64,000 nucleotides of DNA from Hydrogenovibrio thermophilus (lineage in GTDB: Bacteria; Pseudomonadota; Gammaproteobacteria; Thiomicrospirales; Thiomicrospiraceae), in NCBI RefSeq assembly GCF_004028275.1, contig NZ_CP035033.1, forward strand, positions 124,001 through 188,000, read 5' to 3'. The translations under genes were made by a program, and so were the position numbers. Positions 40,304 to 49,800 of the stretch are shown here, piece by piece (positions within the stretch are counted from its first letter, which is position 1; every line of letters begins with the position of its first letter). The notes below the pieces were generated by a model. The model was not told the DNA's origin. It saw nothing but the letters and a program-made list of their open reading frames with translations, and ran no database searches.

Positions 40304-41781
40304 ACCTTTGGCGGCGTTTTGGGGTTCTCATCGGGTTCGGGTTATTTTTACCAGGCCTGGTGTTGGCGGACAGCCGTATGTACCCCGAAGAAGTGGTGCT
40401 TGGGAATCCGGTGACCTGGATTATCAGTGGCGAGCAGGTAGAAAACGATTTCGAACAGCTTGATTTAAGCGTGTTGAAACAACATTTTGTCATTCATGAT
40501 ATTGAAGGGGGCTCCAGCCGCTTACGCCTTCGACTCTACCCATATGAAGCCGGGGTGTTTCAATTACCGGCCATGCATCATGGCGGGCTCCACGTGAAAC
40601 CCATCACCATTCATGTGCAGGAAAACCCGGAAGTTTCCGTTACTTGGCAGGCACCACAAAAACAGGCCTATCCGGACGAAGTGCTGTATTGGCGCGCCGA
40701 TGTTTCGGCCAAAGGGGAGAATATTCCGATCCGTGTTTTAGCGACGGAGAATGACCCGAATCAGGTGTATCAATGGCTGGGGACGGCGGAGCCGAAGGCC
40801 GACCACACCTTGTTTGAAAACCATGTGCGTTTAATTTCCGCGGTGCGTTTTCTGAAACCGGGCGCCTATTCCTTGCCGTCACCGGGGGTGCGAGTGGATT
40901 CATCGGCATATCGTCATGAATTGTTCTTTGCGCCGCCACAAGCGGTTCAAGTAAGGCCGATGCCCTCCTATTTACCGGCTGTGTTGCCGGTTGGTCAGGT
41001 CTCGTTAAGCGCCGATTTCAACCCATTTTGGGTGGTGACAGGGGATTTGTACCACTGGGTTTGGCACTTGAACGGTCAGAATGTCACCGACGAGCAATTG
41101 CCGAATCTGGCCTCGCAATTGACCGATACCGACGGGTTTGAATGGTTGATGCCGACGGTGGAGCGGACTCAGGCGGTGACCGAGTCCGGTTTGATGAGCC
41201 GGGCGGAAATCGACCAGCCATTTCGGATTTTGGAATACGGCTGGGTGCGTTTGCCGGCGTTGCGTGTGACCTATTTCAATCCGCAAAGCGGTCGTTTGGA
41301 GGATGTGGTTTTCCCGGCGCAGTCGATGGTGGCCTTGCCGGGCGCGGTGATCGTGTTCGGGCAATTCTTATTGGCGCTCTTGGCCCTTGTGAGCTTAAGA
41401 GTGATTTGGTTGGGGCTGCGGGAAGCGTTTTTGAAGTGGCGTTTGCTGGCCGGTTTGAAGCAAGCCGATAGTGTGCTTCAGGTTTGGCAATCTGTGGATG
41501 CTTGGTCGCGTCGCCAGCTGAGTCATCGACAAAATGGCCAGGCCTGGCCGGTTCCGGTTATATCAAAAGACGTTTCCGGTTCGCGGCAACCGAGCCTGGG
41601 AAGCTGGTTGCAAGTGTTTGAATCCGAGTACGGTGACAATGCACAGGCGCGGACGCTGGTGGACAGATTGAACGAACAGTTGTATTCAGAACGCCATCCG
41701 GCGGTGAAGTTGGCGGCCCTGGACTGGGCCAAGTCGTTACCGCTGTTTAAAGTATCGTTCAGTCGTTTGCGCCGTTTTTGA
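40297..41781 (+). CDS. batD: BatD-like protein, Bat operon B
   Basis: 494 residues: signal/anchor helix (about 8-24), a long beta-rich extracytoplasmic part, a membrane helix near 350-370, and a cytoplasmic tail. It is shorter than the operon A paralogue and weakly similar; position and topology carry the assignment. It overlaps the VWA-TPR gene by seven bases. Two CCAGGCCTGG copies and a degenerate parS-like site (40587-40600) lie inside. It overlaps the convergent small gene by 23 bases. Confidence 0.75.
   Translation: MVNLWRRFGVLIGFGLFLPGLVLADSRMYPEEVVLGNPVTWIISGEQVENDFEQLDLSVLKQHFVIHDIEGGSSRLRLRLYPYEAGVFQLPAMHHGGLHVKPITIHVQENPEVSVTWQAPQKQAYPDEVLYWRADVSAKGENIPIRVLATENDPNQVYQWLGTAEPKADHTLFENHVRLISAVRFLKPGAYSLPSPGVRVDSSAYRHELFFAPPQAVQVRPMPSYLPAVLPVGQVSLSADFNPFWVVTGDLYHWVWHLNGQNVTDEQLPNLASQLTDTDGFEWLMPTVERTQAVTESGLMSRAEIDQPFRILEYGWVRLPALRVTYFNPQSGRLEDVVFPAQSMVALPGAVIVFGQFLLALLALVSLRVIWLGLREAFLKWRLLAGLKQADSVLQVWQSVDAWSRRQLSHRQNGQAWPVPVISKDVSGSRQPSLGSWLQVFESEYGDNAQARTLVDRLNEQLYSERHPAVKLAALDWAKSLPLFKVSFSRLRRF
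40351..40360. repeat. CCAGGCCTGG palindrome
   Basis: Perfect copy in the signal-peptide codons of operon B batD, read as PGL. Confidence 0.85.
40587..40600. other. Degenerate parS-like site
   Basis: GCTCCACGTGAAAC matches GTTTCACGTGAAAC at 12 of 14 positions and keeps the CACGTG core. It encodes HVKP in operon B batD. Confidence 0.4.
41538..41547. repeat. CCAGGCCTGG palindrome
   Basis: Perfect copy near the 3' end of operon B batD, read as QAW. Confidence 0.85.
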
Positions 41782-42016
41782 GGGCGCCGAAGGTCTGGCG
41801 GTATTTTTTATAAGCAATCGCTAAGGCGTAAATCAGCGCGATCCAGATAATGGTTTGTCCGGCATAAGATAGACCGATGGAAAAGGTGTTTTCACGGATA
41901 AAACTGGGCACCATCAGCAGAACGCCGAGTACCCAGCCCAGAAAAATGGTTTTCAAGGCGATTTTCAAAATGCCTTTCATTAACAGTTGTTTGTGTTCTT
42001 TGGAACCGATTTCCAT
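41759..42016 (-). CDS. Small two-helix membrane protein
   Basis: 85 residues, not recognised. Two hydrophobic segments (about 17-38 and 50-68) with charged ends suggest an integral inner-membrane protein with both termini in the cytoplasm. AAGGAAAG precedes ATG 42016. It lies 33 bases after trxC on the same strand and overlaps the end of the convergent batD by 23 bases. Confidence 0.65.
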   Translation of the reverse strand: MEIGSKEHKQLLMKGILKIALKTIFLGWVLGVLLMVPSFIRENTFSIGLSYAGQTIIWIALIYALAIAYKKYRQTFGALKNGAND

Positions 42017-42049
42017 AGTCTTTCCTTGCCGTTGGAAGAAGTGACCCGA

Positions 42050-42472
42050 TTATAGAGCACTTTTGACCCAATTCACAAAACTTCCCAAATCCATCGCACC
42101 GGATTGGCGGGTGACTTCCTGGCCATTTTCAAAAATGGCCAAGGTCGGGATGGAACGAATATTGAACTGAGCGGCCACCTGTTGTTCATTTTCGGTATTG
42201 ATTTTCACCAAGCGGGCATGGGGTTCCAATTGGGCCGCAGCCTGAGAAAAGGTGGGTGCGAACATTTTGCACGGGCCGCACCAGGGCGCCCAGAAATCGA
42301 CCACCAACGGTTGGTCGGTTTTTTGCAAAGCGCGCAGGAATTGCTGGCCGGTCATTTCCACCGGTTGGCCAGTGAAGACGGGTTGTTTGCATTTTCCGCA
42401 ATTGGGCGATTCAGAGAGTTTTTCGTCTGGAATGCGGTTAAGTCCGCCGCAGTGTGGGCACATGATAATCAT
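42050..42472 (-). CDS. trxC: Thioredoxin 2 (TrxC)
   Basis: 140 residues. An N-terminal zinc ribbon (Cys5, Cys8, Cys25, Cys28) precedes the thioredoxin fold with active site WCGPC (Cys65, Cys68) and the cis-Pro block RSIPTLAIF. This matches E. coli TrxC, a cytosolic disulfide reductase linked to oxidative stress. Start ATG 42472 gives the family N-terminus (CPHCG after four residues). Confidence 0.95.
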   Translation of the reverse strand: MIIMCPHCGGLNRIPDEKLSESPNCGKCKQPVFTGQPVEMTGQQFLRALQKTDQPLVVDFWAPWCGPCKMFAPTFSQAAAQLEPHARLVKINTENEQQVAAQFNIRSIPTLAIFENGQEVTRQSGAMDLGSFVNWVKSAL

Positions 42473-42561
42473 CGTTGGGTTCCTCTAAAAAAGTTCGCTT
42501 AAGCGCGCTCGATAAGGTTAATTTCTCATTTAATAGGGACGATGACGCGCCTTTCAAGCGT

Positions 42562-43017
42562 TTATTTCAACCAGTCCGGTTTGGGACTTTCCCGTTTGCC
42601 GGCTTCAAACCCTTCGTCAACAAAACCGTGCAAGGTAAGATCGTGGCTGTGAATCAGCTCGATTAATTTTGGGTCGTCGGCGGTCAGTTTCGCTTCCACA
42701 CCGTTTTCAATCGCGCGATATTCCATTCGGATCTGATCTTTATATTCGAATAAGGCCGCGAACAGCGGATCCCAGGAGCGGATGGCGCGCCCCATGCCAA
42801 AGCGTTTTTCCATGCCTTGAACATGCGCCTGTAATACTTTCGCCAGTTCCGGGTCATCGCTGGTGGTGCGGGCAATAATGCCGTTTTCCAGCCGTTCGGT
42901 TTCGCGGGATAAGGCTTGGTGGTGTTCCAAGAGTTTTGAGAAGAGGGCTTGGTCTTGGCGATGTTGTTCATCGGTGCCGTGCCCGTGACGATAAGGTTTT
43001 CCGTTAACCGTTTTCAT
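42562..43017 (-). CDS. Conserved protein with an internal duplication, function unknown
   Basis: 151 residues, helical, soluble, without a signal peptide. Two halves look alike: each has a helix with ENGI/ENGV, then DDPEL or DDPKL, then a His pair (AHVQGM and SHDLTLHGF). The spaced His and Glu residues resemble a metal- or haem-binding helical bundle, but no family is recognised. ATG 43017 has GAGG 8 nt upstream. The intrinsic hairpin at 43068-43094 lies just before it, so the gene may be attenuated. Confidence 0.6.
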   Translation of the reverse strand: MKTVNGKPYRHGHGTDEQHRQDQALFSKLLEHHQALSRETERLENGIIARTTSDDPELAKVLQAHVQGMEKRFGMGRAIRSWDPLFAALFEYKDQIRMEYRAIENGVEAKLTADDPKLIELIHSHDLTLHGFVDEGFEAGKRESPKPDWLK

Positions 43018-43061
43018 AAGCAATGCCTCGTTGAAAAGGGAGGTGAGGGTTTATTTTAGAC

Positions 43062-43094
43062 AAAAAAAAGCGCGATAGGGTCAATATCGCGCTT
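43062..43094 (-). terminator. Intrinsic terminator of the candidate small RNA
   Basis: Perfect 10-bp stem AAGCGCGATA (43068-43077) / TATCGCGCTT (43085-43094), followed on the minus strand by eight U. Confidence 0.85.
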
Positions 43095-43205
43095 CGTTCT
43101 ATCTGAGGAGCGGATTCAAAAAGCTGAGGAGACCATTTTGAATCACAATTAATTTTGAGGTTTTAAGGGTAAAACCAACTTAACGTCGTCCTTTTCATTA
43201 AGCTT
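43062..43205 (-). ncRNA. Candidate small RNA or attenuated leader
   Basis: A promoter at 43212-43240 would start a transcript near 43205 on the minus strand, ending at a strong intrinsic terminator (43062-43094). The roughly 140-nt RNA has a hairpin GGTTTTA-CCCT-TAAAACC (43159-43176), then a hairpin ATTCAAAA/TTTTGAAT whose loop carries CUCCUC, then a second unpaired CUCCUC. CUCCUC matches the anti-Shine-Dalgarno sites used by many small RNAs. An 11-codon frame near the 5' end is weakly supported. It could instead be an attenuator leader for the gene starting at 43017. Confidence 0.45.
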
Positions 43206-43211
43206 GAGTTC

Positions 43212-43240
43212 AGTGTATTGGTTTCAATGGAGTTGGTCAA
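43212..43240 (-). promoter_or_regulatory. Predicted sigma-70 promoter of the candidate small RNA
   Basis: On the minus strand TTGACC (43235-43240) and TACACT (43212-43217) are exactly 17 bases apart. Confidence 0.6.
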
Positions 43241-43295
43241 TTCGATAAGCTTGAAGGAGTATGAAGGACTCTTGAAGGAAGTGTGTCCACTATGA

Positions 43296-43319
43296 AAAAC
43301 CGCCAGGCCTGGCGGTTTT
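43296..43319. terminator. Terminator built on the CCAGGCCTGG palindrome
   Basis: A 24-bp perfect palindrome centred on a CCAGGCCTGG copy (43303-43312), with A-run and T-run arms. It lies 15 bases past the stop of the 111-residue gene and should work in both directions. Confidence 0.75.
43303..43312. repeat. CCAGGCCTGG palindrome
   Basis: Perfect intergenic copy forming the stem core of the terminator at 43296-43319. Confidence 0.85.
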
Positions 43320-43333
43320 CGGTTTGATTTCGG

Positions 43334-43669
43334 TTAAACCGGAATCTCGTCTTGTGAGGCCATGTAGTTGGCGCGCAATTGTAAGTCGGATGCGGAACTC
43401 AAGTTGTTAGTGGCTTGGTTCGCGTCGATTGGCGCGTCTTCGACCGATTGCATATCGTTCACCGTCTGGCTTTTCACCAAATCACGGTAATCGACGGCTT
43501 GTGCTTTCGATTGATCCGACAAAGTCACCGTCGTGTTATTGGCGGAAGATGTTTCGGCCGTGGTTTTATCAGTCACTTTCGGCTCTTTCGCCAAAACGTC
43601 CGTCAAGCCGTTCGACTGCGTATAAAGCGCTTGAGTCGCCGAGGCGAGTGCGGGGTTGACGTTGTTCAT
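43334..43669 (-). CDS. Small unknown protein divergent from the giant adhesin
   Basis: 111 residues, rich in Ala, Ser, Thr, Asn, Gln and Asp, with no signal peptide or membrane helix; probably disordered or loosely helical. It is not recognised. An almost perfect ribosome site (AAGGAGGTCATT before ATG 43669) argues that it is strongly translated. It is divergent from the adhesin across a 218-bp gap and has its own terminator. A role linked to the adhesin is only suggested by position. Confidence 0.65.
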   Translation of the reverse strand: MNNVNPALASATQALYTQSNGLTDVLAKEPKVTDKTTAETSSANNTTVTLSDQSKAQAVDYRDLVKSQTVNDMQSVEDAPIDANQATNNLSSASDLQLRANYMASQDEIPV

Positions 43670-43778
43670 AATGACCTCCTTAAATCCATTAAGGGTGTTC
43701 GATAAAGTAACTCTTTGATTTCATTATAGTTAAAAAACAGAAAAAGTCCAGTAAGTATTTGTTTCGTTAGGAAATTAA

Positions 43779-43796
43779 CATATTTGGATAAATATG
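43779..43796. promoter_or_regulatory. Inverted repeat in the adhesin upstream region
   Basis: CATATTT and AAATATG flank GGAT, 92 bases before the adhesin ATG. It could be a regulator site; no promoter hexamers are clear nearby. Confidence 0.3.
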
Positions 43797-43887
43797 ACCC
43801 TAGGTACAGTATGTTTTCCGGCTTAAATCGCTTACTCTATGGTCAGAAAAATATATATAGAAACAAAAATCATCAAGGATTTGCGCT

Positions 43888-46800
43888 ATGGCTGAACAAA
43901 ATTTGACGAGCATCGTGGGTGTGGTGGAGTCTGTGGAAGGCAACGTTGTCATTCAACAAAGCGACGGTGGGCAGAACACACCTGTGTCAGAAGGGATGCA
44001 GCTTGCCGCCAATCAAATTATTCAGACCGGCCCGCAAGGCGCCGTCCTTATCAATCTGGCGAATGGGCAAACCCTGTCGTTAGGGCGTAACACCACGCTG
44101 AAACTGGACGAAGACGTCACCGGAATTGCGGCGATTGAAGACGCTCAAGCCACGGATGAAGACGTTCAGCAGGTCATCGAGAAAGTATTGGCCGGCAACT
44201 TTGATGACATTGAAGAGACGGCGGCCGGTGAGGAAACCGGCATCAGTTCATCCAGCCAGGAAGCCGACATTGTTCAGCATGAACTGGTGACTGGGGACGT
44301 CACATCCGGATTTGATACTCAAACAACCGGTCAGGAAACGACAGGCGTGTCGTTCCGTGAGGCGGCTACCGATAATACTTATGAAGTGCCGGTTATTCTC
44401 GATATCGACAGAATTACGTCTGACTCCGTTGTGAATATGACAGAAGCGAGCGGCATTATTACTGTGACAGGGAGCGTTGCTGCACCCAATATCGCATCTG
44501 GAAACATCACACTAACCGTCAACGGAAATGAATATTACGGCGTGATTGACGGTAATGGAAACTATGCCATCGATATTCCAGGTTCCGAATTTACCGCCGA
44601 TAGCGATCACAGAATCGAAGCTTCCGCTACGGTCACCGATAATAATGGTATGCAAGGGACAGCGACTTCTACGGAGTTTTACTTTGTGGATACGCAGGCC
44701 GGTTCCGATAACAGTGCGCCGGTGGTCACCATTACAGAAGATGCTGACAATGATGGACGCATTACGACAGCAGAGCTCAGTGGTGATATTAATGTTGCTA
44801 TTGGTCTGCCAAATGGAGCAGTGGCCGGTGATACCATCTCCGTTTCAGATGGGGTTTCCAGTGCGGATATCGTGTTGACATCCTCCGATATTGCCAATGG
44901 TCAGGTCTTGACCAGTTTCGCTAACCCCGGAGAAGGCGAAAATATTACCGTCGAAGCGGTTTTAAAAGATCAGTTTGGAAACGTTTCTAATACGGGGCAA
45001 GACAGCGCATTAATCAATGCCGTTCCAGTAGCGGTCGATGACAGCGCCAGCACCACAGAAGACACCGCCTTAACGATCAGTGCGGCGGACATGCTGAGCA
45101 ACGACAGCGATATCGATGGTGATACGCTGAGCATCGACAGCTTCACCCAGCCAGCGAACGGCACCTTAGTGGACAATGGCGATGGCACCTTCAGCTACAC
45201 GCCAAATGCGGACTACAACGGAACTGACAGCTTCACCTACACGGTCAGTGACGGCAATGGCGGCACGGATACGGCGACGGTGAACCTGACGGTCACCCCA
45301 GACAACGACATGCCGGTAGCGGTCGATGACAGCGCCAGCACCACAGAAGACACCGCCTTAACGATCAGTGCGGCGGACATGCTGAGCAACGACAGCGATA
45401 TCGATGGTGATACGCTGAGCATCGACAGCTTCACCCAGCCAGCGAACGGCACCTTAGTGGACAATGGCGATGGCACCTTCAGCTACACGCCAAATGCGGA
45501 CTACAACGGAACTGACAGCTTCACCTACACGGTCAGTGACGGCAATGGCGGCACGGATACGGCGACGGTGAACCTGACGGTCACCCCAGACAACGACATG
45601 CCGGTAGCGGTCGATGACAGCGCCAGCACCACAGAAGACACCGCCTTAACGATCAGTGCGGCGGACATGCTGAGCAACGACAGCGATATCGATGGTGATA
45701 CGCTGAGCATCGACAGCTTCACCCAGCCAGCGAACGGCACCTTAGTGGACAATGGCGATGGCACCTTTCAGCTTACACGCCAAATGCGGACTACAACGGA
45801 ACTGACAGCTTCACCTACACGGTCAGTGACGGCAATGGCGGCACGGATACGGCGACGGTGAACCTGACGGTCACCCCAGACAACGACATGCCGGTAGCGG
45901 TCGATGACAGCGCCAGCACCACAGAAGACACCGCCTTAACGATCAGTGCGGCGGACATGCTGAGCAACGACAGCGATATCGATGGTGATACGCTGAGCAT
46001 CGACAGCTTCACCCAGCCAGCGAACGGCACCTTAGTGGACAATGGCGATGGCACCTTCAGCTACACGCCAAATGCGGACTACAACGGAACTGACAGCTTC
46101 ACCTACACGGTCAGTGACGGCAATGGCGGCACGGATACGGCGACGGTGAACCTGACGGTCACCCCAGACAACGACATGCCGGTAGCGGTCGATGACAGCG
46201 CCAGCACCACAGAAGACACCGCCTTAACGATCAGTGCGGCGGACATGCTGAGCAACGACAGCGATATCGATGGTGATACGCTGAGCATCGACAGCTTCAC
46301 CCAGCCAGCGAACGGCACCTTAGTGGACAATGGCGATGGCACCTTCAGCTACACGCCAAATGCGGACTACAACGGAACTGACAGCTTCACCTACACGGTC
46401 AGTGACGGCAATGGCGGCACGGATACGGCGACGGTGAACCTGACGGTCACCCCAGACAACGACATGCCGGTAGCGGTCGATGACAGCGCCAGCACCACAG
46501 AAGACACCGCCTTAACGATCAGTGCGGCGGACATGCTGAGCAACGACAGCGATATCGATGGTGATACGCTGAGCATCGACAGCTTCACCCAGCCAGCGAA
46601 CGGCACCTTAGTGGACAATGGCGATGGCACCTTCAGCTACACGCCAAATGCGGACTACAACGGAACTGACAGCTTCACCTACACGGTCAGTGACGGCAAT
46701 GGCGGCACGGATACGGCGACGGTGAACCTGACGGTCACCCCAGACAACGACATGCCGGTAGCGGTCGATGACAGCGCCAGCACCACAGAAGACACCGCCT

Positions 46801-49800
46801 TAACGATCAGTGCGGCGGACATGCTGAGCAACGACAGCGATATCGATGGTGATACGCTGAGCATCGACAGCTTCACCCAGCCAGCGAACGGCACCTTAGT
46901 GGACAATGGCGATGGCACCTTCAGCTACACGCCAAATGCGGACTACAACGGAACTGACAGCTTCACCTACACGGTCAGTGACGGCAATGGCGGCACGGAT
47001 ACGGCGACGGTGAACCTGACGGTCACCCCAGACAACGACATGCCGGTAGCGGTCGATGACAGCGCCAGCACCACAGAAGACACCGCCTTAACGATCAGTG
47101 CGGCGGACATGCTGAGCAACGACAGCGATATCGATGGTGATACGCTGAGCATCGACAGCTTCACCCAGCCAGCGAACGGCACCTTAGTGGACAATGGCGA
47201 TGGCACCTTCAGCTACACGCCAAATGCGGACTACAACGGAACTGACAGCTTCACCTACACGGTCAGTGACGGCAATGGCGGCACGGATACGGCGACGGTG
47301 AACCTGACGGTCACCCCAGACAACGACATGCCGGTAGCGGTCGATGACAGCGCCAGCACCACAGAAGACACCGCCTTAACGATCAGTGCGGCGGACATGC
47401 TGAGCAACGACAGCGATATCGATGGTGATACGCTGAGCATCGACAGCTTCACCCAGCCAGCGAACGGCACCTTAGTGGACAATGGCGATGGCACCTTCAG
47501 CTACACGCCAAATGCGGACTACAACGGAACTGACAGCTTCACCTACACGGTCAGTGACGGCAATGGCGGCACGGATACGGCGACGGTGAACCTGACGGTC
47601 ACCCCAGACAACGACATGCCGGTAGCGGTCGATGACAGCGCCAGCACCACAGAAGACACCGCCTTAACGATCAGTGCGGCGGACATGCTGAGCAACGACA
47701 GCGATATCGATGGTGATACGCTGAGCATCGACAGCTTCACCCAGCCAGCGAACGGCACCTTAGTGGACAATGGCGATGGCACCTTCAGCTACACGCCAAA
47801 TGCGGACTACAACGGAACTGACAGCTTCACCTACACGGTCAGTGACGGCAATGGCGGCACGGATACGGCGACGGTGAACCTGACGGTCACCCCAGACAAC
47901 GACATGCCGGTAGCGGTCGATGACAGCGCCAGCACCACAGAAGACACCGCCTTAACGATCAGTGCGGCGGACATGCTGAGCAACGACAGCGATATCGATG
48001 GTGATACGCTGAGCATCGACAGCTTCACCCAGCCAGCGAACGGCACCTTAGTGGACAATGGCGATGGCACCTTCAGCTACACGCCAAATGCGGACTACAA
48101 CGGAACTGACAGCTTCACCTACACGGTCAGTGACGGCAATGGCGGCACGGATACGGCGACGGTGAACCTGACGGTCACCCCAGACAACGACATGCCGGTA
48201 GCGGTCGATGACAGCGCCAGCACCACAGAAGACACCGCCTTAACGATCAGTGCGGCGGACATGCTGAGCAACGACAGCGATATCGATGGTGATACGCTGA
48301 GCATCGACAGCTTCACCCAGCCAGCGAACGGCACCTTAGTGGACAATGGCGATGGCACCTTCAGCTACACGCCAAATGCGGACTACAACGGAACTGACAG
48401 CTTCACCTACACGGTCAGTGACGGCAATGGCGGCACGGATACGGCGACGGTGAACCTGACGGTCACCCCAGACAACGACATGCCGGTAGCGGTCGATGAC
48501 AGCGCCAGCACCACAGAAGACACCGCCTTTAACGATCAGTGCGGCGGACATGCTGAGCAACGACAGCGATATCGATGGTGATACGCTGAGCATCGACAGC
48601 TTCACCCAGCCAGCGAACGGCACCTTAGTGGACAATGGCGATGGCACCTTCAGCTACACGCCAAATGCGGACTACAACGGAACTGACAGCTTCACCTACA
48701 CGGTCAGTGACGGCAATGGCGGCACGGATACGGCGACGGTGAACCTGACGGTCACCCCAGACAACGACATGCCGGTAGCGGTCGATGACAGCGCCAGCAC
48801 CACAGAAGACACCGCCTTAACGATCAGTGCGGCGGACATGCTGAGCAACGACAGCGATATCGATGGTGATACGCTGAGCATCGACAGCTTCACCCAGCCA
48901 GCGAACGGCACCTTAGTGGACAATGGCGATGGCACCTTCAGCTACACGCCAAATGCGGACTACAACGGAACTGACAGCTTCACCTACACGGTCAGTGACG
49001 GCAATGGCGGCACGGATACGGCGACGGTGAACCTGACGGTCACCCCAGACAACGACATGCCGGTAGCGGTCGATGACAGCGCCAGCACCACAGAAGACAC
49101 CGCCTTAACGATCAGTGCGGCGGACATGCTGAGCAACGACAGCGATATCGATGGTGATACGCTGAGCATCGACAGCTTCACCCAGCCAGCGAACGGCACC
49201 TTAGTGGACAATGGCGATGGCACCTTCAGCTACACGCCAAATGCGGACTACAACGGAACTGACAGCTTCACCTACACGGTCAGTGACGGCAATGGCGGCA
49301 CGGATACGGCGACGGTGAACCTGACGGTCACCCCAGACAACGACATGCCGGTAGCGGTCGATGACAGCGCCAGCACCACAGAAGACACCGCCTTAACGAT
49401 CAGTGCGGCGGACATGCTGAGCAACGACAGCGATATCGATGGTGATACGCTGAGCATCGACAGCTTTCACCCAGCCAGCGAACGGCACCTTAGTGGACAA
49501 TGGCGATGGCACCTTCAGCTACACGCCAAATGCGGACTACAACGGAACTGACAGCTTCACCTACACGGTCAGTGACGGCAATGGCGGCACGGATACGGCG
49601 ACGGTGAACCTGACGGTCACCCCAGACAACGACATGCCGGTAGCGGTCGATGACAGCGCCAGCACCACAGAAGACACCGCCTTAACGATCAGTGCGGCGG
49701 ACATGCTGAGCAACGACAGCGATATCGATGGTGATACGCTGAGCATCGACAGCTTCACCCAGCCAGCGAACGGCACCTTAGTGGACAATGGCGATGGCAC

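Follow-up and report, generated by a model that had tools for sequence, protein, structure and literature searches.

The stretch between an unannotated 111-aa ORF (43334-43669, minus strand) and a gene for a 151-aa protein (42562-43017, minus strand) raises two questions: whether it carries a transcript of its own, and which messages such a transcript would act upon. The initial annotation had proposed a small RNA with CUCCUC motifs of the kind that mask ribosome sites. The window, i.e., the whole 64-kb stretch of DNA that was analyzed (G000:C1:124001-188000), is part of a 2.61-Mb genome; trxC lies beyond the 151-aa gene. Elsewhere in the window, positions 43888-49551 encode a very large cadherin/Ig-like repeat protein with tandem units of ~288 bp, in which the frame shifts near 45858 and 48496-48581 could reflect either the true sequence or the assembly of the repeats.

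Architecture of the minus-strand unit

The minus strand from 43205 to 43062 very likely encodes a previously undescribed stand-alone small RNA. The features of the locus, all on the minus strand, are as follows.

43250-43278, minus: direct-repeat box CCTTCAAG-AGT-CCTTCAT-ACT-CCTTCAAG, period 10-11, just 5' of the -35
43212-43240, minus: promoter, -35 TTGACC (43240-43235), 17 nt, -10 TACACT (43217-43212)
43062-43205, minus: small RNA, about 144 nt, its 5' end (43205) placed from the -10
43177-43204, minus: hairpin 1 (family helix 1), two-sided changes in 10 of 10 pairs
43159-43176, minus: hairpin 2, with the preceding GUUGG the predicted ccoN pairing segment (post hoc)
43110-43146, minus: hairpin 3, GATTCAAAA stem, the loop carrying CUCCUCAG
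43124-43131, minus: anti-Shine-Dalgarno (anti-SD) seed A, CUCCUCAG within the loop, found chiefly in Hydrogenovibrio
43103-43110, minus: anti-SD seed B, CUCCUCAG after G, unpaired, conserved through the order
43062-43095, minus: intrinsic terminator, 11-pair stem (43095-43067) and U8
42562-43017, minus: neighboring gene (151 aa), usual downstream neighbor of the small RNA, not required for it

The promoter sequence TTGACC-17-TACACT is present on the minus strand at 43240-43212, as initially reported. Such a match alone is at chance level (four promoter-like sites in 41000-45500 vs. 3.5 expected from shuffles), and we take the small-RNA promoter as real because it is conserved in relatives, not from its match score: in loci aligned on the -10, the relatives' consensus at the same place has ATTG at -35 and TAAACT at -10. 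Upstream of the -35, TCAATACT and CTTCAA repeats appear in the consensus over 41 loci, some of which have no upstream sequence; this script alignment, anchored on the -10, left out L067, L069, L071, L097, and L098. The repeat box at 43250-43278 is possibly an activator site, its CCTTCA direct repeats resembling the site of an OmpR/PhoB-type regulator. The box has no other exact match in the window genome; with two mismatches it matches 10 genome sites, six of them inside ORFs.

The span of ~140 nt described as lacking a convincing gene does so on inspection by eye, each of its three reading frames on the minus strand being either stopped or without homologs of note. The sequence 43205-43058 folds at -42.7 kcal/mol compared with -25.2 for shuffles (z -4.9, the terminator counted in). 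For the terminator, the U8 stands, and the stem has 11 pairs (43095-43067) rather than the 10 bp first given. Both CUCCUC motifs are located as described, one in a hairpin loop (43131-43124) and the other in the stretch that separates hairpin 3 from the terminator (43110-43103), with seed A unpaired at 81% and seed B at 87% on average in the window copy; the remainder of the 64-kb window has one CTCCTC on the plus strand and two on the minus strand. Across 41 RNAs, the seed has a median unpaired value of 0.76, compared with 0.41 for the entire RNA.

Conservation, neighboring gene and opposite strand

The order in question is that of Hydrogenovibrio, Thiomicrorhabdus, and relatives, and in our collection order and family comprise the same 62 genomes. 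A covariance model built from six Thiomicrorhabdus sequences that do not include the window copy finds the latter blind at 42.3 bits (E 1.8e-7). Sense-strand matches to this model at E<=0.01 occur in 38 of 47 loci (six being its own training sequences), and two of the 47 also give an antisense match at that threshold. The parts of the RNA follow the same order in relatives: hairpin 1, a GUUGG-like linker, hairpin 2, hairpin 3, the unpaired GCUCCUCAG, and the terminator. When MAFFT alignments are used alone, A1 (20 loci) recovers just the terminator and misses hairpins 1-3, and A2 (11 loci) recovers hairpin 3 only; hairpins are missed because their arms slide, and the covariance-model alignment was therefore used. 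In that alignment of 33 sequences, the covariation across relatives suggested as a check is found, with two-sided changes in 37 of 38 pairs, a covariation score of 0.493 (0.164 in shuffles, <=0.109 when slid) and 92.1% paired cells (69.2% in shuffles, 30-46% when slid); being fitted to the covariance model, the alignment leans towards its own structure, and L057 was left out.

Model R2, trained on 33 sequences with the window copy included, matches 46 of the 62 genomes at E<=0.05; the 16 without a match include several with intact cco sites (see below). Among 369 genomes drawn from the whole class, four of which are listed as family, there are 8 matches at E<=0.01, of which 3 are from the family; the other 5 are close to the chance expectation (3.7 predicted of 369), and these weak matches outside the family are taken as chance. 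Two of them, L162 (G284) and L166 (G408), nevertheless have by eye CUCC stretches near a terminator at ~1420-1720, and represent either chance or other anti-SD RNAs. Upstream of the neighboring gene and on the same strand, CTCCTCA followed by the terminator is present in 41 of 47 loci (47 of the 49 neighbor-gene places were used, two in G027 being left out). The loci lacking this arrangement are those of G061, G022, and G082 and of the g2 genomes G011, G017, and G024; G061 has CUUAUUAG at the seed place and matches the six-sequence model weakly (18.8 bits). Three further Hydrogenovibrio loci, L155 (1415-1573, plus strand, G003), L156 (1383-1551, plus strand, G010), and L158 (1392-1570, minus strand, G009), encode CUCCUC-bearing, terminator-ended RNAs with weaker model matches, possibly other anti-SD RNAs.

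The proposed small-RNA unit is supported for the minus strand, with promoter, hairpins, seed, and terminator all conserved across the order. That the locus is instead chance or decayed sequence without a product is highly improbable: the promoter match by itself is at chance level, but structure, seed, and promoter are conserved order-wide.

The 151-aa gene is present in 48 of the 62 genomes of the family. In most loci, the RNA lies on the same strand just upstream of it, with about 40-150 nt from the U-tract to the first aligned codon, which would fit a regulated leader or attenuator in which read-through past the terminator is the controlled step. Against this, in G068, G069, G074, and G075 (L145-L147, L150) the usual gene is gone and the RNA, with promoter and terminator, lies directly before trxC, and in G024 the RNA is 3.6 kb from the gene homolog, next to an ORF that by eye is argB-like. 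Moreover, the Thiomicrorhabdus genomes G069, G070, G073, and G074 have second copies of the RNA, in which CCCCUAAG replaces CUCCUCAG:

L144, 1417-1539, minus strand: second RNA copy
L148, 1306-1428, plus strand: second RNA copy
L151, 1343-1464, plus strand: second RNA copy
L152, 1380-1507, minus strand: second RNA copy

The second copies in L144, L148, and L152 are convergent with a neighboring ORF (acyltransferase-like by eye). Across L144-L154, the RNA has no constant downstream partner, its neighbor being in some cases trxC, in others an ORF resembling a permease or a convergent gene. The initial annotation had named a transcript that is only a leader of the gene at 43017 as the outcome that would overturn a small RNA; this is contradicted by the persistence of the RNA in genomes without that gene. 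Because the RNA is kept without the usual gene and has convergent second copies, it is no mere leader, and we reject a pure leader of the 42562-43017 gene as its main role, although some transcription may still run through into that gene. The attenuator reading is also at odds with the conservation of the seed within an unpaired stretch, and we consider it improbable.

The 151-aa protein contains an internal duplication, a unit of helix, two strands, and helix occurring twice. Searches of its sequence against Pfam, NCBIfam, and PDB gave no match of note, and its structural model (pLDDT 84) has no fold match at E<=0.001; an assignment as hemerythrin-like is unsupported.

A CsrB-like RNA on the plus strand, sequestering CsrA through GGA motifs and ending at the stem at 43296-43319, had been offered as an alternative on the basis of seven GGA copies. 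Seven are found only when the span is extended to 43062-43300; 43062-43240 holds four. GGA density is 29 per kb in the longer span and 22 per kb in the shorter, above the window mean of 15.7, and the stem is present. However, the stem is a palindrome (AAAACCGCCAGGCCTGGCGGTTTT) that recurs elsewhere in the genome, and three of the plus-strand GGA lie opposite the two conserved CUCCUC seeds and the base run between them, as their complement. The plus-strand fold is no better than shuffles (z -0.98), and at this site R2 gives the plus strand 23.7 bits and the minus strand 73.3. It is the minus strand for which conservation of U-tract, promoter, and structure is found, and Rfam gives no match on either strand. 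While the GGA-rich strand opposite the RNA resembles the CsrA sponges CsrB/RsmY, it differs from them in lacking a better-than-chance fold and in that no conserved promoter or terminator is seen. We therefore reject this reading, on fold, R2 score, and Rfam, despite the GGA density, and regard it as the least credible of those considered here. The palindrome itself is a repeated terminator-like element of the window genome, with 25 genome matches when both strands are counted (13 of 229 candidates scored).

Predicted pairing with ccoO and ccoP

A search for complements of the seed, made blind, i.e., before any target was in mind, used the pattern CTGAGGAG-N3-10-ATG in five genomes and returned 25 matches, compared with 6 for a reversed control pattern. 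The sole gene shared between any of the genomes (blastp, frames of at least 25 aa) occurs in all five and is ccoP, identified by TIGR00782 (237 bits). A second search, with TGAGGAGC-N2-12-ATG in six genomes, was non-blind, having been made after the complementarity of ccoO was known; it gave 34 matches vs. 14 in the control, with ccoO as the sole gene shared at all, in six of six genomes (frames of at least 40 aa). Both genes lie in ccoNOQP, the operon of the cbb3 oxidase. Over 58 genomes, the typical sites are AUUCUGAGGAGAAUAA at ccoP, predicted to pair with CUCCUCAGA, and GAGUUGAGGAGCACAAACUC at ccoO, predicted to pair with UGCUCCUCAG, over 9-10 bp; the longest predicted ccoO pairing (13 bp) is in G033 and G078.

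The whole RNA gives a noisy search of the cco loci and ranks the sites weakly (median rank 3.9% for ccoO, 20% for ccoP, and 6.4% for ccoN), and the ranking was then done with a 14-nt seed, already used for the permutation and ORF-start comparisons. Ranked against every second 26-nt sense window of its own cco locus (26 of 35 cco loci; nine genomes without a usable seed, G061 included, were left out), the seed ranks the ribosome site of ccoO within the top 1% in all 26 genomes and that of ccoP within the top 1% in 20 and the top 5% in 24 of the 26, G073 counting as a ccoP miss with an internal ATG taken as the start. For ccoN, which belongs to the same operon and has a real SD (AGGGG), the seed reaches the top 1% in none of 25. 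In the window genome, seed B scores -16.1 with ccoO and -16.4 with ccoP, compared with -14.7 for the best of 47 window ORF starts picked by a simple script; with seed A, ccoO (-16.4) exceeds any ORF start, and one start (-15.9) beats ccoP (-15.6). The suggestion that CUCCUC masks ribosome sites is supported by this specific complementarity to the ccoO and ccoP sites. G061, in which the seed is lost, is the only one among 58 genomes with UUCAGGAG at ccoO, and G007, in which the RNA was not found (best E 0.57), has CUAAGGAG at ccoP.

Several observations temper this assignment. Across 47 genomes, native RNA-site pairs gain little over permuted ones, at -17.29 vs. -16.95 for ccoO (0 of 300) and -14.48 vs. 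-14.28 for ccoP (15 of 300), and in a swap the ccoO site of G002 is bound more strongly by the RNA of G025 than by that of G002. Compensatory evolution of seed and target in the strict sense would not seem to be indicated, the native-over-permuted gain being small and the swaps showing no strict compensation. Comparing the base before CUCCUC with the base after GAGGAG at ccoO in the 58 genomes, which include related genomes that are not independent, we find G/C in 37, G/U in 1, A/U in 2 (G002 and G006), A/C, a mismatched C, in 4, and GCUCCUU/C in 2; genomes in which no CUCCUC seed was found have U (5), A (3), or C (4) after GAGGAG, with CAGGAG in place of GAGGAG in G061. By eye, the ccoO and ccoP ribosome sites lie within small, apparently conserved hairpins (L257-L263, e.g., G000:C1:2317068-2317087), namely GAGUU..AACUC before the ccoO AUG and AUUCU-GAGG-AGAAU before ccoP. 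These hairpins may explain part of the conservation of the sites. The ccoN site is also conserved (GGGGAATC in 24 of 34), yet without a seed match.

These observations bear on a further alternative, that the RNA is a stand-alone anti-SD RNA with a broad target set, for which the cbb3 operon is one of many targets or a non-physiological one, the cco sites being kept because of the hairpins that they form themselves or because of translational coupling. CUCCUC is able to pair with many AGGAG sites, and large target sets are reported for anti-SD RNAs such as AbcR1/2 (PMC8844928); the hairpins at ccoO and ccoP, the ccoN site kept without a seed match, and the small gain of native over permuted pairs point the same way. 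On the other hand, ccoP and ccoO alone recur across genomes in the seed-complement searches, and the complementarity goes past the SD core and places these sites in the top 1% of their loci. We regard a broad target set as unlikely, while giving it appreciable weight.

Proposed mechanism and known systems

We favor, as the probable reading, a trans-acting anti-SD RNA of the order that pairs with the ccoO and ccoP sites and lowers the synthesis of the cbb3 oxidase, probably assisted by Hfq. At the level of sequence, the RNA has its own promoter and terminator, a conserved unpaired anti-SD seed, independence from its neighbor, and complementarity to a target elsewhere, as belongs to this class. 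The small RNA would be transcribed from its own promoter, possibly with the help of an activator bound to the repeat box, and the unpaired GCUCCUCAG would base-pair with two ribosome-binding sites of the ccoNOQP mRNA, that of ccoO (UUGAGGAGCA) and that of ccoP (UCUGAGGAG); in Hydrogenovibrio, the second seed copy in the hairpin loop would pair likewise. Pairing would cover the SD of ccoO and ccoP and block ribosome entry, such that less cbb3-type cytochrome c oxidase would be translated. Hfq, which is encoded in the window genome (101 bits), may act as the helper. The direction (repression), the signal, and the use of Hfq are assigned by analogy with known anti-SD RNAs such as AbcR1/2 (PMC8844928). 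FNR-like boxes (TTGAY-N4-RTCAA) are absent from the five cco loci searched.

A more extensive version of this mechanism can be put forward tentatively, with less than even confidence: an operon tuner in which the hairpin 2 region and GUUGG would pair with ccoN and GCUCCUCAG with ccoO and ccoP, silencing the cbb3 oxidase cistron by cistron, while the duplicated copy with the CCCCUAAG seed, found in one Thiomicrorhabdus clade, may serve other targets. The 5' part of the RNA (a 65-nt segment chosen after the ccoN pairing result was seen) ranks ccoN in the top 1% in 8 of 25 genomes and the top 5% in 12 of 25, a post hoc result; native pairs, likewise post hoc, score -17.1 vs. -15.8 for permuted pairs (0 of 200, n = 20).

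If the favored reading is correct, chemolithoautotrophic sulfur oxidizers have a new small-RNA family that is order-wide and has a concrete target, a high-affinity terminal oxidase that sets the use of scarce oxygen, and the RNA may tune the oxygen respiration of sulfur-oxidizing marine bacteria. The natural losses in G061 and G007 serve as controls for a short testable prediction.

Among the literature matches listed, no small RNA was found reported for this bacterial group, 'Thiomicrospira crunogena' included, and titles and abstract openings name no small-RNA pairing with ccoNOQP; the excerpts of PMC10247376 and PMC8307010 likewise do not show such pairing. In Rfam, the window copy has no family at the gathering threshold on either strand, and 11 homologous loci give five matches below threshold, each to a different family, with suhB/MmgR (RF00519) scoring best. 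This likeness is a weak match of one homolog (L098, 26.9 bits, E 0.093); it differs in falling short of the gathering score of 41 bits, in concerning one of 11 loci, and in having no counterpart in the window at the gathering threshold.

Functional parallels are found in other groups. The HRC-8-4 motif of Rhodobacterales is also a structured RNA linked to cbb3 oxidase genes, but it lies between ccoNOQP and ccoGHIS, belongs to another class and locus, and in its authors' view resembles a terminator riboswitch (PMC8632094). NrrF of Neisseria (sdhCDAB, petABC) is similarly a small RNA that lowers respiratory-chain operons, although it is Fur-controlled, is predicted to pair upstream of the petA SD, and has another sequence and other targets (PMC5586341). 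In mode of action, there is a parallel with AbcR1/2 (alpha-r15) and NfeR1 of Sinorhizobium, trans-acting RNAs that pair at ribosome sites and present an anti-SD motif, CUCCUCCC, in the loop of a hairpin; AbcR1/2 carry another such motif in a single-stranded stretch that separates two stems (PMC8844928). These RNAs are alphaproteobacterial and target mainly transport and metabolic mRNAs, whereas the window RNA matches no Rfam family at threshold, carries the CUCCUCAG seed, and has one predicted target, a respiratory operon.
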